Below, piece after piece: positions 25,217-30,144 of a stretch of 35,682 bases of DNA. The stretch's first letter is position 1. The number at the start of each line of letters is the position of its first letter. The position numbers and the translations under genes were made by a program. The stretch is from Methanobacteriota archaeon (GTDB taxonomy: Archaea; JAADCQ01; Methanopyri; Methanopyrales; Methanopyraceae). A model generated the notes under the pieces. That model saw only the letters and a list, made by a program, of their open reading frames with translations. It made no database searches and was not told the DNA's origin. Where the stretch lies: assembly GCA_027064305.1 (NCBI GenBank), contig JAMOPY010000028.1, positions 1 through 35,682 on the forward strand. Direction: 5' to 3'.

Positions 25217-25618
25217 GTGGACACGCTGACCGTGTTTATAATCGTGCGCTCCGACTCCTACGAGAAGATCCTCAACTGCCTGTCCGATGTGGAAAGGTAC
25301 GCGGGTATTAAAATCTTGGGCAAGCCTCGTATCCTCAGCCCCGACGTGGCCAACACCATCGTCCGCGAGCTGCTCGGAGAGGTCAAGCGGCCGTACCCGG
25401 TGGCCGCCATCGCCCAGGCGGAGGGGGAGCCGGCCGAGATCATCGAGAAGATCTCGAAGATCCACCCGCCCGGGCACGTGATCGTCGTCACGCCCCGGCA
25501 CGGGGACATCTACCGGGGCCTCCTCCGCCGGTTCGCCAAGTTCGAGGAACTGCGCGGGTACCACCCACCCAAGCGGAGGATCGGGACGGATGAGGACCGG
25601 GAACAGGAGGAAGGCTGA
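25217..25618 (+). CDS. DUF356-like conserved methanogen protein
   Basis: 133-residue soluble protein with an early beta strand (TVFIIVRSDS), a helix (YEKILNCLSDVERYAGIKI), and the strands YPVAAIAQAEG and GHVIVVTPRHGD; it resembles the methanogen family DUF356 in these segments. No catalytic motif is evident. The GTG start follows GGCGGG. A TTTATA run (25235-25240) inside the first strand codes for Phe-Ile, not necessarily a promoter. The gene overlaps the methyltransferase gene by 29 bases, forming the start of a plus-strand run. Confidence 0.65.
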   Translation: MDTLTVFIIVRSDSYEKILNCLSDVERYAGIKILGKPRILSPDVANTIVRELLGEVKRPYPVAAIAQAEGEPAEIIEKISKIHPPGHVIVVTPRHGDIYRGLLRRFAKFEELRGYHPPKRRIGTDEDREQEEG

Positions 25619-26135
25619 GCGGCTCCGCCGGCTGTTCCCGGACGAGGTGGAGTACCACCGGGACGACGACTTCGTGGTGACGTGCCCCACCCGGCTCTGC
25701 TTCGTGCCGACCCCGATCGACGCCGTGATCCGGATCCTGGAGCGCCTGAGGCCGGGCCCGGAGGACCTGGTGGTGGACCTGGGGTGCGGTGACGGTCGGT
25801 TCGTGGCGGCCGCCGCCTACCTGTGCGGGTGCCGGGGGGTGGGCGTGGACGCGCGGGAGGACGTGCTGCGGGTCGCGCGCCGTAAGTGCGAAACGCTGGG
25901 CGTAGACGATAAAACGACATTTATACGGGCCGACGTACGGGAGGTGGACCTCCGCGGGCTGGATCCGGACCTGGTGTTCGTGTACCTTTTCCCGTCGCTC
26001 CTGCGCGAGCTCGCGGAGGAGCTGGCCGCGTGCGGCGCCACGGTCGTCAGCTACACGTTCCCGATCGAGGCGCTCGGACCGGCCCGGGTGCTGAAGCTGG
26101 GCGAGCGTCGACGCGCGTACGTGTACGAGCCTTAA
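25590..26135 (+). CDS. SAM-dependent methyltransferase, class I
   Basis: 181-residue Rossmann-fold methyltransferase. SAM-binding motif I is VVDLGCGDGRFV (residues 61-72 or so), motif II is the acidic end of GVGVDARED, and a later FIRADVREVDL fits motif III. The N-terminal PTPIDAVIRILERLRPGPED resembles archaeal small-molecule or protein methyltransferases of this size. Substrate unknown. The ATG overlaps the DUF356-like gene; a 13-base gap separates it from the MazG-like gene. A TTTATA run at 25920-25925 lies within it. Confidence 0.85.
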   Translation: MRTGNRRKAERLRRLFPDEVEYHRDDDFVVTCPTRLCFVPTPIDAVIRILERLRPGPEDLVVDLGCGDGRFVAAAAYLCGCRGVGVDAREDVLRVARRKCETLGVDDKTTFIRADVREVDLRGLDPDLVFVYLFPSLLRELAEELAACGATVVSYTFPIEALGPARVLKLGERRRAYVYEP

Positions 26136-26148
26136 GGGGACGCCGGTC

Positions 26149-26463
26149 TTGAACGAGCTGATTAGGGCCGCGATCGACCGGTTCCGGTCCAGCCGCCGGC
26201 TCAGGTCTCAGATCCTCGGGATCTCGGGCCTCACCCCGCGGAAGGATCGGGCCGTGGAGGTGGCGACGGGAGCGCGGCTCGTGGAGGAGGCGCTGGAGGT
26301 ACGGGACGCCGTGCGCCGCGGGGACCGGGAGAAGGTGCTCGAGGAGCTGGGAGACCTGCTGATCGAGGTGGAGGCCTTCATGACCGCCCACGAGATTAAT
26401 TTGGAGGACGTGCGGCGTTTCCAGTCCCGCAAGCAGCGCGAGCTCGGGCAGCTGGAGGGCTAG
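26149..26463 (+). CDS. MazG-like nucleotide pyrophosphohydrolase
   Basis: 104-residue all-helical protein containing the all-alpha NTP pyrophosphohydrolase signature ExxE-(15)-ExxD: VEEALEV, then VLEELGDLL. These acidic residues bind Mg2+ in MazG/HisE/dUTPase-like enzymes that hydrolyse non-canonical NTPs to NMP and PPi. The protein is the length of a single-domain MazG-like member. TTG start (26149); the stop is 4 bases before the actin-like gene. Substrate not determinable. Confidence 0.8.
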   Translation: MNELIRAAIDRFRSSRRLRSQILGISGLTPRKDRAVEVATGARLVEEALEVRDAVRRGDREKVLEELGDLLIEVEAFMTAHEINLEDVRRFQSRKQRELGQLEG

Positions 26464-26467
26464 TTGC

Positions 26468-28105
26468 TTGAACGTGGTGGCCGTAGACCTGGGGACCGAG
26501 GTGATCGCGGCGGCCGTGGGCAGGCTCCGCGGGGACAACCTGGTCGTCAAGGGGTACAGCGAGCGGTACATCATGGACCCCACGCTCATGGAGCGGGGTA
26601 ACGTACGGTACGTCCGCGGCGTCAGCGAGGTCGTGGAGCGGACGGTCCGGGAGGCGCTTAACAACGCGGGCCTCGACCGGCGGGAGGTGGAGGGCGTCGG
26701 GCTGTCGATGACCGGCGACCGGTTCGAGATTCAAGAGAAGGCGATCCGGGTGACCCCCGAGGGCAGCGTCGGGTGGGAGGACATCGGGCGCTCGATCGTG
26801 GAGCGGCTGGAGTTTTCCGACCGCGTCCGCCCGGTTTCGGTGGATATCGTGGAGCTGGAGGTGAACGGTACCGAGGTCGACCCGCGCGAGCTCAGCTCGG
26901 AGCACCCGGAGGGGATCATCGGGAGCCGGGCCTCCGAGGTGCGGTTCCGGGCCATCGTCTCGAGTGCGAACCCCACGCTCGTCCACAACCTGGAGCGGAT
27001 CGCGGACATCCTCAACCTCAAGCTGATTACCGTCTCCATCGAGCCCATCGCCGTGGCCAAGTCCCTAACGGCGGAGCAGCGGGCCACGGACTACCTCCTC
27101 ATCGACTCCGGCGGCGGCACCACCGACGTCTCCATGATCCGGGACTCCAGCCTCGAGCTGTGCAAGACGATCAAGGTGGGCGGCCGTGACTTCACCCTCG
27201 CCCTGGCGAACGAGTTCGGTCTGACCTACGAGGAGGCGGAGAGCCTGAAGAAGAAGCTGAACTCCCCCGTCGCCGACGAGGAGCTCGCCAAGTACGGCAT
27301 CTCCCGCAGTCAGGCGCTCGAGCCCATCGAGGAGGTGGCCGAGTACGTCCGGGACACCATCCTGTCCGCCGTCAAGCGCATGATCCGGGCCGCCGACCTC
27401 CAGCCGCCCGACCGCGTCGGCCTCTACGGGGGCGGGATCCTGCTGGACCAGGCGGAGAACGCGGTTCGGGAGGCCGTCATGCTCGCCTACCGGGACTACC
27501 TGGGCACCGTCCCGCGCATCCACATCCTCGACGCGGCGCGCGTGGTCCCGCACACCGGTCGCCGCCTGCAGGGTCCCATGCGCGTCGTGGCCCTCTCCGT
27601 CCTGCGCGACACCGCCCTGTGCCAGCGGCACGCGGGGGCCCGGATCGAGGTCGAGGTGGACGAGATGCGGGCACCCGAGGGCCGCTACACCCTGGAGGTC
27701 AGCGGGCGGCTGGAGGACACCGTCCGCATCCCGCGCAAGACCGGCCTCAAGCAGGCCCTGATCAGCTTCATCAAGGAGGTCATCTTTATGGAACCCTCCC
27801 CGCTCATCGCCAAGCTCAAGGGCCGAGCCTACGCCGGCACCGTCGCCATCAGGTTCGACGGGCTGGACGGGAACCGGGTGCGAAACGTGGAGGGCGTGCG
27901 GATCCGCACGCTGCCCACCAAGTCGGCGGACGAGGTGCGCCGCCTCCCCTACGAGTACATCATCGTGCAGGTGAAGGAGATGGGGCCCATACTGATCCCG
28001 GTGGACGAGATCGTCGGCGAGGCGGGGGAAGAGGGTGAGACGGAAGGCCACGCTGATCGTCCTGAGGAGCGGCTGGACGATACCGGAAGTCGTCAACCTA
28101 ATTAA
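26468..28105 (+). CDS. FtsA/PilM-like actin-fold ATPase with C-terminal extension
   Basis: 545-residue protein of the actin/Hsp70/FtsA superfamily. Phosphate-1 is VAVDLGTEVIAAAVG at the N-terminus, phosphate-2 is LLIDSGGGTTDVSMI near 210, and the adenosine motif is VGLYGGGILLDQAE near 318. Between phosphate 1 and 2 lies a domain of about 100 residues with VHNLERIADILNLKLITVSIEPIAVAKSL, typical of FtsA/PilM (SHS2-like domain 1C). About 175 residues follow the actin core, a separate C-terminal region. No FtsA-type C-terminal amphipathic helix was evident. TTG start; overlaps the tail-anchored gene by 71 bases. It may form filaments or act as a membrane-bound scaffold; unproven. Confidence 0.85.
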   Translation: MNVVAVDLGTEVIAAAVGRLRGDNLVVKGYSERYIMDPTLMERGNVRYVRGVSEVVERTVREALNNAGLDRREVEGVGLSMTGDRFEIQEKAIRVTPEGSVGWEDIGRSIVERLEFSDRVRPVSVDIVELEVNGTEVDPRELSSEHPEGIIGSRASEVRFRAIVSSANPTLVHNLERIADILNLKLITVSIEPIAVAKSLTAEQRATDYLLIDSGGGTTDVSMIRDSSLELCKTIKVGGRDFTLALANEFGLTYEEAESLKKKLNSPVADEELAKYGISRSQALEPIEEVAEYVRDTILSAVKRMIRAADLQPPDRVGLYGGGILLDQAENAVREAVMLAYRDYLGTVPRIHILDAARVVPHTGRRLQGPMRVVALSVLRDTALCQRHAGARIEVEVDEMRAPEGRYTLEVSGRLEDTVRIPRKTGLKQALISFIKEVIFMEPSPLIAKLKGRAYAGTVAIRFDGLDGNRVRNVEGVRIRTLPTKSADEVRRLPYEYIIVQVKEMGPILIPVDEIVGEAGEEGETEGHADRPEERLDDTGSRQPN

Positions 28106-28661
28106 ACGGGCGAAGAACGACGTGGTCGTGGTCGTGGGGGAGATCGACTCGTTCAACCGGGAGGTCCTGTCGTCCGTCTGCCGCTCCCTGGACAAGATGG
28201 TCCTCTTCGGCGACGAGTACGTGGACAAGTTCTCCATCGACGAGCGGCTGGAGACCATCAAGGAGTCACCGCCGGTCCGCCACTGCGACCTCGCCGTGCT
28301 CGAGGAACCCGCGCAGATGGACGGGCAGGTCCTGCTGGACGTGAAGGCCGACGAGGAGACGATCGACCGGATCCTCACCGAAGCGCACCGGCACTTCGAC
28401 AAGGTCTGCCGCTACGAGCGCAACGTGAGGGCCGACGCGTACCTGGTCGTGGACCGAAGGCAGGGCCGGATCCGACTCTACGCCCAGAACGATAGCGACC
28501 GGCTGCGCGAGTTCAGCATGAAGGTGGCGACGATGGTGGCGGGTCGGAGGGGCCGCTCCTCCAGGCTCCGACGCGTTGCCCTCGCCTCGGCGGTCACGCT
28601 CGTCGTCCTGGGAGTCCTCCTGTCCGGGCTACTTCTTACGAATCTCCACCACGTCTCCTAG
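28035..28661 (+). CDS. Tail-anchored membrane protein, partner of the actin-like ATPase
   Basis: 208-residue protein of unknown family: a cytoplasmic domain of about 175 residues (strand-rich start, TLIVLRSGWTIPEVVNLIK and DVVVVVGEID) followed by a basic segment (RRGRSSRLRR) and one C-terminal membrane helix (about 182-203), so it is predicted to be tail-anchored. The GTG start lies 71 bases inside the actin-like gene, showing coupled expression. By analogy with FtsA-ZipA and PilM-PilN pairs, it may tether the ATPase to the membrane. It converges with aMBF1, overlapping by 33 bases. Confidence 0.75.
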   Translation: MRRKATLIVLRSGWTIPEVVNLIKRAKNDVVVVVGEIDSFNREVLSSVCRSLDKMVLFGDEYVDKFSIDERLETIKESPPVRHCDLAVLEEPAQMDGQVLLDVKADEETIDRILTEAHRHFDKVCRYERNVRADAYLVVDRRQGRIRLYAQNDSDRLREFSMKVATMVAGRRGRSSRLRRVALASAVTLVVLGVLLSGLLLTNLHHVS

Positions 28662-29141
28662 CGTGAGTCCCTCACTCCCGGAGCCCGACGTCTCGGCCTC
28701 CGTCGCCTCCAGGGGCTCCAGCAGGTCCACCTCCAGCACCTTCTCCAGCCTCCGGGCCAGGTTCACGTCCGGCTCCATCTTCCCCGCCTCGATCCGCCGG
28801 ATCACGGACACCTTCTCCCCAACCCGCTCCGCCAGCTCCTCCTGACTCCACCCCTTGCGTTCCCGCGCCTCCCGCACCCGGTCCGCGTAATCCGGAACCA
28901 GCTCGTACCCCTCCCGAAACGGATCGAACCCCCTGGGACGCCGACGACGCGGCCGGGGAGCCCGCCGAGGTGGGCGGCGACCACCGCGCTCCCGACGCCC
29001 CGAACCCACGCTCGGGCGAGCCACCTCCCTACCGAACCGGGCGCACTCCTCGCAGACCCGCAGCTCGGACCCCTCCACCCGCACGACCCTCGCCCGACCC
29101 CGGATCGGGCGACCGCAGATCTCGCACCTGCGCTCCGACAA
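28629..29141 (-). CDS. Archaeal multiprotein bridging factor 1 (aMBF1)
   Basis: 170-residue regulator of the MBF1 family: an N-terminal zinc ribbon (CxxC twice: C6, C9, C30, C33), an Arg/Pro-rich linker (about 44-72), and a cro/XRE-type helix-turn-helix (about 84-140: ADRVREARERKGWSQEELAERVG, then IRRIEAGKMEP). MBF1 proteins bind basal factors such as TBP in eukaryotes; archaeal versions associate with ribosomes or transcription. The long Arg-rich linker is unusually basic. TTG start at 29141. It is convergent with the tail-anchored gene. Confidence 0.92.
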   Translation of the reverse strand: MSERRCEICGRPIRGRARVVRVEGSELRVCEECARFGREVARPSVGSGRRERGGRRPPRRAPRPRRRRPRGFDPFREGYELVPDYADRVREARERKGWSQEELAERVGEKVSVIRRIEAGKMEPDVNLARRLEKVLEVDLLEPLEATEAETSGSGSEGLTLGDVVEIRKK

Positions 29142-29210: not shown

Positions 29211-29244
29211 GGTGCCGGTCTTCCACCACCAAGGGGCCTCAAGC

Positions 29245-29649
29245 TTGCCCCGGCTGATCATGCGCGGGAAGACCGTCCGAGGCAGCGGCGAGGTGGAGGG
29301 TGAGGTCATCCACGTCACGCACCCGGATCAGATCGTGGACATCCAGGAGGGCCAGGTGGTCTTCACCCAGGACCTGGGCGGGGCCTACGACACGTACCCG
29401 GAGGTGATGGGGGCCGTGGCCATCGTCTGCACGGGCGAGGTGCGCACCCTCTCCGACGACGGGGAGATCCCGGTCGTTCGGGAGGCCCAGCCGGTCAGCG
29501 AGGAGGCTAAGGAGCTGCTCGTCGAGCCCGAGATCCCGGAGGACGCTCCGCACCACGGGGAGGAGCACCGACACCTCATGCCCCCCGAGGGCAGCCGTGT
29601 GCGCGTCGACCTGGATCGCGGCGAGATCTACCTGCTCGAGGAGGAATGA
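29245..29649 (+). CDS. Stand-alone PEP-utilising-enzyme mobile-like domain protein
   Basis: 134-residue protein that resembles the swivelling phosphohistidine domain of PEP synthase/PPDK: GEVEGEVIHVTHPDQIVDIQEGQVVFTQ, then MGAVAIVCTG, GEIPVV, and the closing VRVDLDRGEIYLLEE. The catalytic His normally found in the Gly-Gly-x-x-Ser-His stretch before GIPVV is missing (TLSDDGEIPVV), so phosphotransfer is unlikely. TTG 29245 follows AAGGGG; GTG 29212 is the alternative. It is separated by 3 bases from the TPP-domain gene, implying a shared function. No other domain is attached. Confidence 0.6.
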   Translation: MPRLIMRGKTVRGSGEVEGEVIHVTHPDQIVDIQEGQVVFTQDLGGAYDTYPEVMGAVAIVCTGEVRTLSDDGEIPVVREAQPVSEEAKELLVEPEIPEDAPHHGEEHRHLMPPEGSRVRVDLDRGEIYLLEEE

Positions 29650-29652
29650 GCG

Positions 29653-30144
29653 TTGCGGCCCGAGGAGGCCCTCGCCCCGCTGGCGGAGCTCGTGGGCGAC
29701 CGGGACCGGGTCGTGGTCGACCTCGGGGACAACACGATCGCCGCCGCCAAGGCCGGACTGGACCCGGACGGAGGCACCGGCGCGCTGGGCGGCGCGATCG
29801 CCGTCGCCCTCGGCCACTGCCTCCGCACCGAGGGCCGGGTGTACTGCGTGGTGGGCGACGGCGGCTTCTTCATGCACCTGCACACGCTGGCCACGATCGC
29901 GCAGAACCGGGACCGGTTCGAGAACCTCACCATCGTGGTCGTGACCGACGCCGCCTGGGGGATGACCGGGGGGCAGGAGAACCCCGCCACCGAGGCCTCG
30001 CCCGCCGAGGTGGCGGAGTCCCTGGGCCTCAAGCCCACCGGGGTCGCCACCGACGTCGACGAGGCGGAGCGACTGCTCAACCGGTGCGCCCGGTCCGGCC
30101 CCTCCCTCGCCGAGCTCCGCTGCGACCCGATGACCTACCTGTAA
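29653..30144 (+). CDS. Stand-alone TPP-binding PP-domain protein (ComE-like)
   Basis: 163-residue thiamine-pyrophosphate-enzyme C-terminal (PP) domain: ALGGAIAVALG, the GDG motif (68-70) in VVGDGGFFMHLHTLATIAQN, then LTIVVVTDAAWGMTGGQE. It resembles sulfopyruvate decarboxylase beta subunit ComE (coenzyme M synthesis) and similar decarboxylase halves. The usual Asn after GDG (DNxxYG) is replaced by Ala (DAAWG), which weakens the canonical Mg2+ site. TTG start. The 3' end overlaps the convergent protease gene by 68 bases. A matching Pyr-domain gene begins 1.3 kb downstream on the same strand. Confidence 0.7.
   Translation: MRPEEALAPLAELVGDRDRVVVDLGDNTIAAAKAGLDPDGGTGALGGAIAVALGHCLRTEGRVYCVVGDGGFFMHLHTLATIAQNRDRFENLTIVVVTDAAWGMTGGQENPATEASPAEVAESLGLKPTGVATDVDEAERLLNRCARSGPSLAELRCDPMTYL

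Follow-up and report, generated by a model that had tools for sequence, protein, structure and literature searches.

Sequence analysis of an FtsA/PilM-lineage actin-fold protein and its predicted tail-anchored partner in Methanopyrus

What would an archaeon do with an actin-fold ATPase of the FtsA/PilM type whose gene overlaps that of a small membrane protein? The question is raised by a gene pair in a window of 35,682 nucleotides (the whole stretch of DNA that was analysed), taken from a draft genome (1.21 Mb, 50 contigs) of Methanopyrus, a heat-loving methane-making archaeon. The genome was compared with four relatives of the same genus; these five Methanopyrus genomes are all that the collection contains of the GTDB phylum. 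Two open reading frames of 545 and 208 amino acids (aa), overlapping by 71 bases as the initial annotation had described, were found within the following gene order:

25217..25618, + strand: DUF356 protein, also in other methanogens; 5' edge of the putatively inserted run
25590..26135, + strand: class I methyltransferase; upstream member of the gene run
26149..26463, + strand: MazG-like NTP pyrophosphohydrolase domain protein, 104 aa; stops 4 bases upstream of A
26468..28105, + strand: protein A gene, open reading frame of 545 aa with a TTG start; FtsA/PilM-like actin-fold ATPase
28035..28105, + strand: A/B overlap, 71 bp, in different frames
28035..28661, + strand: protein B gene, open reading frame of 208 aa with a GTG start; GGGGGA stretch just upstream
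28629..29141, - strand: aMBF1, multiprotein bridging factor (TIGR00270, 174 bits); 3' edge of the putatively inserted run

The methyltransferase had weak similarity to the archaeal protein-lysine N-methyltransferase NF041081 (49 bits; cut-off 200). The methyltransferase and MazG-like genes (25590-26463) belong to the same Methanopyrus run as A and B, to which they may be functionally tied. The 3' end of B overlapped that of the opposite-strand aMBF1 gene tail to tail by 33 bases (28629-28661). Further on, positions 29212-30144 held an uncharacterised frame of 145 aa and, immediately after it, a protein of TPP-enzyme C-terminal type, similar to sulfopyruvate decarboxylase beta (59.5 bits vs. 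a cut-off of 221.5).

Protein A contained the three nucleotide-binding motifs that had been read from the sequence: DLGT (residues 7-10, phosphate 1), LIDSGGGTTD (211-220, phosphate 2) and YGGG (320-323, adenosine), with D7, G9, T10, D213, G215-T219, D220 and G321-G322 invariant in all five genomes. It exceeded the cut-off of the Pfam FtsA family (PF14450; 40.8 vs. 31.8 bits), and its best profile was FtsA TIGR01174 (2.5e-21, 76.2 bits), followed by EutJ and PilM and then by MreB. The TIGR01174 score was less than half of the curated cut-off (175.85 bits), the match covered the 371-position profile no further than position 260 in four of the five orthologues (290 in G004), and the subdomain 2B region of the profile, with its FtsZ-binding surface, was largely unmatched, so that the residues of the FtsZ-peptide site had no assignable position in A. 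Scores were also below the cut-offs of the curated PilM profile (40.6 vs. 133 bits) and of MreB PF06723 (20.7 vs. 27 bits), and the Pfam Actin family, looked for as the crenactin and archaeal actin test, was not among the matches of A at E<=1. The profile comparison proposed in the initial annotation placed FtsA first and EutJ and PilM next, with the TIGR01174 and PilM scores both below their curated cut-offs and with no match to Pfam Actin.

The predicted structure of A was weak (mean pLDDT 54; ten-residue blocks of 42-87 in the core), and this modest quality made for low TM-scores. A fold search with the model returned FtsA as its six best matches (2e-19 to 1.3e-18), and every one of the first 29 was FtsA or PilM, in agreement with the actin fold of FtsA/PilM type originally assigned. 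Solved FtsA structures in the PDB matched residues 3-263 (2e-8). Both the FtsA profile and these structures aligned through residues 85-165, the putative domain 1C region, although alignment and model confidence were low there; FtsA and PilM both have domain 1C where actin has 1B.

EutJ was a close profile match of A and the best single PDB match of the A family profile, and the operon partners of A are enzymes. On these grounds A could be an ATP-dependent reactivase or chaperone-like switch of the EutJ, EutA or diol dehydratase reactivase type, serving a membrane-bound enzyme or regulator in a non-cytoskeletal role. This is unlikely, as EutJ was outranked by FtsA and PilM in the fold search and the FtsA profile ran through the putative domain 1C region.

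The actin core of A occupied about residues 1-370 and was followed by the extra C-terminal region of about 175 residues (370-545) noticed initially. This region was modelled with pLDDT mostly below 40, and the last 201 residues of A matched no NCBIfam family. A basic amphipathic helix, which a similar measure detected in Escherichia coli FtsA, was not found at the tail of any of the five orthologues, the tail being acidic. Protein A is thus an actin-fold protein of the FtsA/PilM lineage, closest to FtsA but not a canonical FtsA; the name FtsA is withheld because of the score under half of the cut-off, the match ending at position 260, the approximately 175 extra residues, and the acidic tail lacking the amphipathic helix.

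FtsZ and SepF were present in all five Methanopyrus genomes, with ftsZ on a different contig from A and B. A conserved C-terminal peptide (DLEKIL or DLERIL) was found in all five FtsZ proteins and, taken with the closeness of A to FtsA, would suit a functional FtsA that binds this peptide directly, as a second FtsZ anchor beside SepF. Such a function is very improbable: A lacks the amphipathic tail, its FtsA-specific match is lost in the 2B region, and SepF is already there. The presence of SepF in 5/5 genomes also led to the rejection of A as its replacement.

The MreB of the window genome was a separate protein of 387 aa (L006:1411-2574, G000:C49), far from A, with a PF06723 match of 340 bits and also a match to Pfam Actin. 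Protein A was therefore rejected as the MreB or crenactin of the genome, given its own MreB score below cut-off, its lack of a Pfam Actin match and this separate MreB. Methanopyrus has at least two actin-fold proteins of cytoskeletal type (A and MreB). As FtsZ, SepF and MreB are all present in the genus, A is an addition and not a substitute.

Protein B had a single strongly hydrophobic 19-mer in all five orthologues (mean hydropathy 2.3-2.8), lying after a basic stretch and ending 5-12 residues before the C-terminus, which upheld the single C-terminal membrane helix of the initial annotation. The model was confident over residues 1-174, an alpha/beta part (most ten-residue blocks 86-95), and placed a single helix, the C-terminal transmembrane one, at about 182-203 with low confidence. 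By this sequence pattern, B would be a tail-anchored protein whose folded domain lies in the cytosol. It matched no Pfam or NCBIfam family, and in the PDB it had neither a sequence match (best E=0.16) nor a fold match below 0.001. A weak resemblance (E=0.16) to methanogenesis marker 17 found no support in the fold search and was rejected. A possible second B in the same genome (E=0.006) was taken as a chance match, the frame at that locus reading as an ACT-type acetolactate synthase small subunit.

The orientation of B bears on whether A and B could form a cytoplasmic collar like PilM-PilN or GspL, that is, an actin-fold platform on a membrane protein, for a pilus or secretion machine rather than for division. 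In the fold search PilM came second among the families, and it was also one of the best profile matches; the PilM of type IV pili works with a single-pass membrane partner, an arrangement that A and B resemble. In PilN, however, the helix is N-terminal and the domain external, against the cytosolic domain and C-terminal helix of B; A reached only 41 bits of the 133 set for PilM; and pilN, pilO, pilP and pilQ were not found beside A, the neighbours being DUF356, methyltransferase, MazG and aMBF1 genes, with no pilus genes in the run. A collar of this kind is accordingly not a probable function of the pair.

The two genes were adjacent, in the same order and overlapping in 5/5 Methanopyrus genomes (overlaps of 71, 71, 71, 71 and 83 bases), with the GTG start of B retained in all five and the MazG-like gene in identical order before A. 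Identity to the window copy ranged from 53 to 86% for A and from 40 to 74% for B among the orthologues. The dN/dS ratio was 0.22 for A and 0.36 for B between G000 and G003, 0.06 and 0.09 between G001 and G002, and below 0.45 in all unsaturated comparisons among the five genomes. Both A and B are therefore maintained proteins under purifying selection, far beyond chance. The conserved LDDTG near the C-terminal end of A overlies, in the other frame, the invariant GWTIPEV of B, so that its conservation cannot be credited to A and it was not read as a functional motif. Gene overlaps are common in compact archaeal genomes, and A and B might merely be co-transcribed without acting together. Mere co-transcription is rather improbable, since order and overlap persisted across the 53-86% identity of A and the two genes were found only together.

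Searched with profiles of A and B, 394 archaeal genomes (252 genera) gave convincing relatives in Methanopyrus only, always both together. The adjacency that was to be checked across methanogens held throughout the genus, and a methanogen-wide module was rejected on these searches. A scan of GTDB r220 likewise returned Methanopyrus only, with two Methanopyrus-specific peptides as patterns that are blind to distant FtsA. Viral contigs contained no relative of A or of B; among plasmid records B had no relative, and A matched bacterial FtsA or EutJ in part only. An origin of the pair in a virus or plasmid was rejected on these searches.

In other methanogens, DUF356 and aMBF1 were direct convergent neighbours in nine of the loci examined, with a stop-to-stop gap of -4 to 232 bases in eight of the nine and of 641 in the ninth. 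Four genes (methyltransferase, MazG-like, A and B) lay between them in Methanopyrus. This junction, direct elsewhere and split in Methanopyrus, is consistent with the four-gene run being a gained module; its loss in the other methanogens is less probable.

A wider search for FtsA found an archaeal protein of 706 aa in two species of one genus (G241 and G295; L069:8389-10509 and L048:442-2562). It matched TIGR01174 with 124 bits over positions 4-357, better than A does, and neither protein reaches the FtsA cut-off. This FtsA/PilM-like protein had a ThiS-like C-terminal domain, and its gene sat between CheC-like and CheR genes in a chemotaxis cluster (CheA). In the parts of Pende et al. (2021; PMC8178401) that were consulted, an FtsA-like homologue is described for Methanopyri alone among archaea, with an unknown function and probable transfer from bacteria. 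The existence of an A-type protein is therefore prior art as regards that source, and the 706-aa protein shows that FtsA-like proteins, broadly understood, are not confined to Methanopyri. Relative to the same parts of the paper, three details appear to be new: the membrane-anchored partner B, the lack of an FtsA-type membrane tail in A, and the shared site of insertion.

A tentative explanation, with somewhat less than an even chance of being correct, is that A is a gained FtsA/PilM-lineage ATPase, recruited to the membrane by B and accessory to the FtsZ-SepF ring or to envelope growth. In the ancestor of Methanopyrus, A and B, perhaps along with the methyltransferase and MazG-like genes, would have been gained in the interval from DUF356 to aMBF1. 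Protein B, its C-terminal helix in the membrane and its folded domain on the cytosolic side, would bind A and recruit it to the membrane; a tether of this kind is the simplest reading, as B has a membrane anchor and A lacks an FtsA-type tail helix. In Methanopyrus the anchor would thus be a separate protein and not, as in bacterial FtsA, part of the ATPase tail, and ATP-bound A would polymerise into a short filament or form a scaffold at the membrane. There it could assist the FtsZ-SepF ring or the growth of the envelope in a pseudomurein-walled cell, the wall type given for Methanopyrus in the consulted parts of PMC8178401. From the family of A and the cell type, a function as an accessory of the division ring or the wall is tentatively taken as the most likely one. 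Against this explanation count the neighbouring methyltransferase, MazG and DUF356 genes, which are not division genes, the position of ftsZ on another contig, the largely unmatched 2B region and the weak model of A.

A more specific form of this explanation, doubtful though conceivable, is a split FtsA: the ATPase would have lost its own membrane tail and be held by the dedicated tail-anchored B, alongside FtsZ and SepF, as an archaeon-specific coupling between an actin-fold filament and either the division site or wall synthesis. FtsZ-bearing archaea are not known to use any FtsZ anchor other than SepF. Methanopyrus, with an FtsA relative and its own membrane protein, is a natural case in which to ask whether an actin-fold ATPase, once acquired, can join the archaeal divisome or wall machinery, and through which anchor; the partner gene B is a concrete handle on that wiring.

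Among the closest known systems is the FtsA-like homologue of Methanopyri; the consulted parts of Pende et al. (2021; PMC8178401) say nothing of an overlapping tail-anchored partner, of the lack of the FtsA tail helix, of the additional C-terminal region or of the site of insertion. The MreB of Methanopyrus resembles A in being an actin-fold protein of the same genome and differs in being a separate 387-aa protein with a 340-bit MreB match, distant from A. PilM, with PilN, of type IV pili shares with A the actin fold and the arrangement of a soluble platform with a single-pass membrane partner, but the topology of B is opposite to that of PilN and no pilus genes lie near A and B. Bacterial FtsA differs in its amphipathic tail, which A lacks, and A differs from it in scoring 76 bits against a cut-off of 176, in its unmatched 2B region, in its approximately 175 extra C-terminal residues, and in a gene that is not beside ftsZ; the two are alike in the actin fold, the nucleotide motifs, profile positions 1-260 and the best fold matches.
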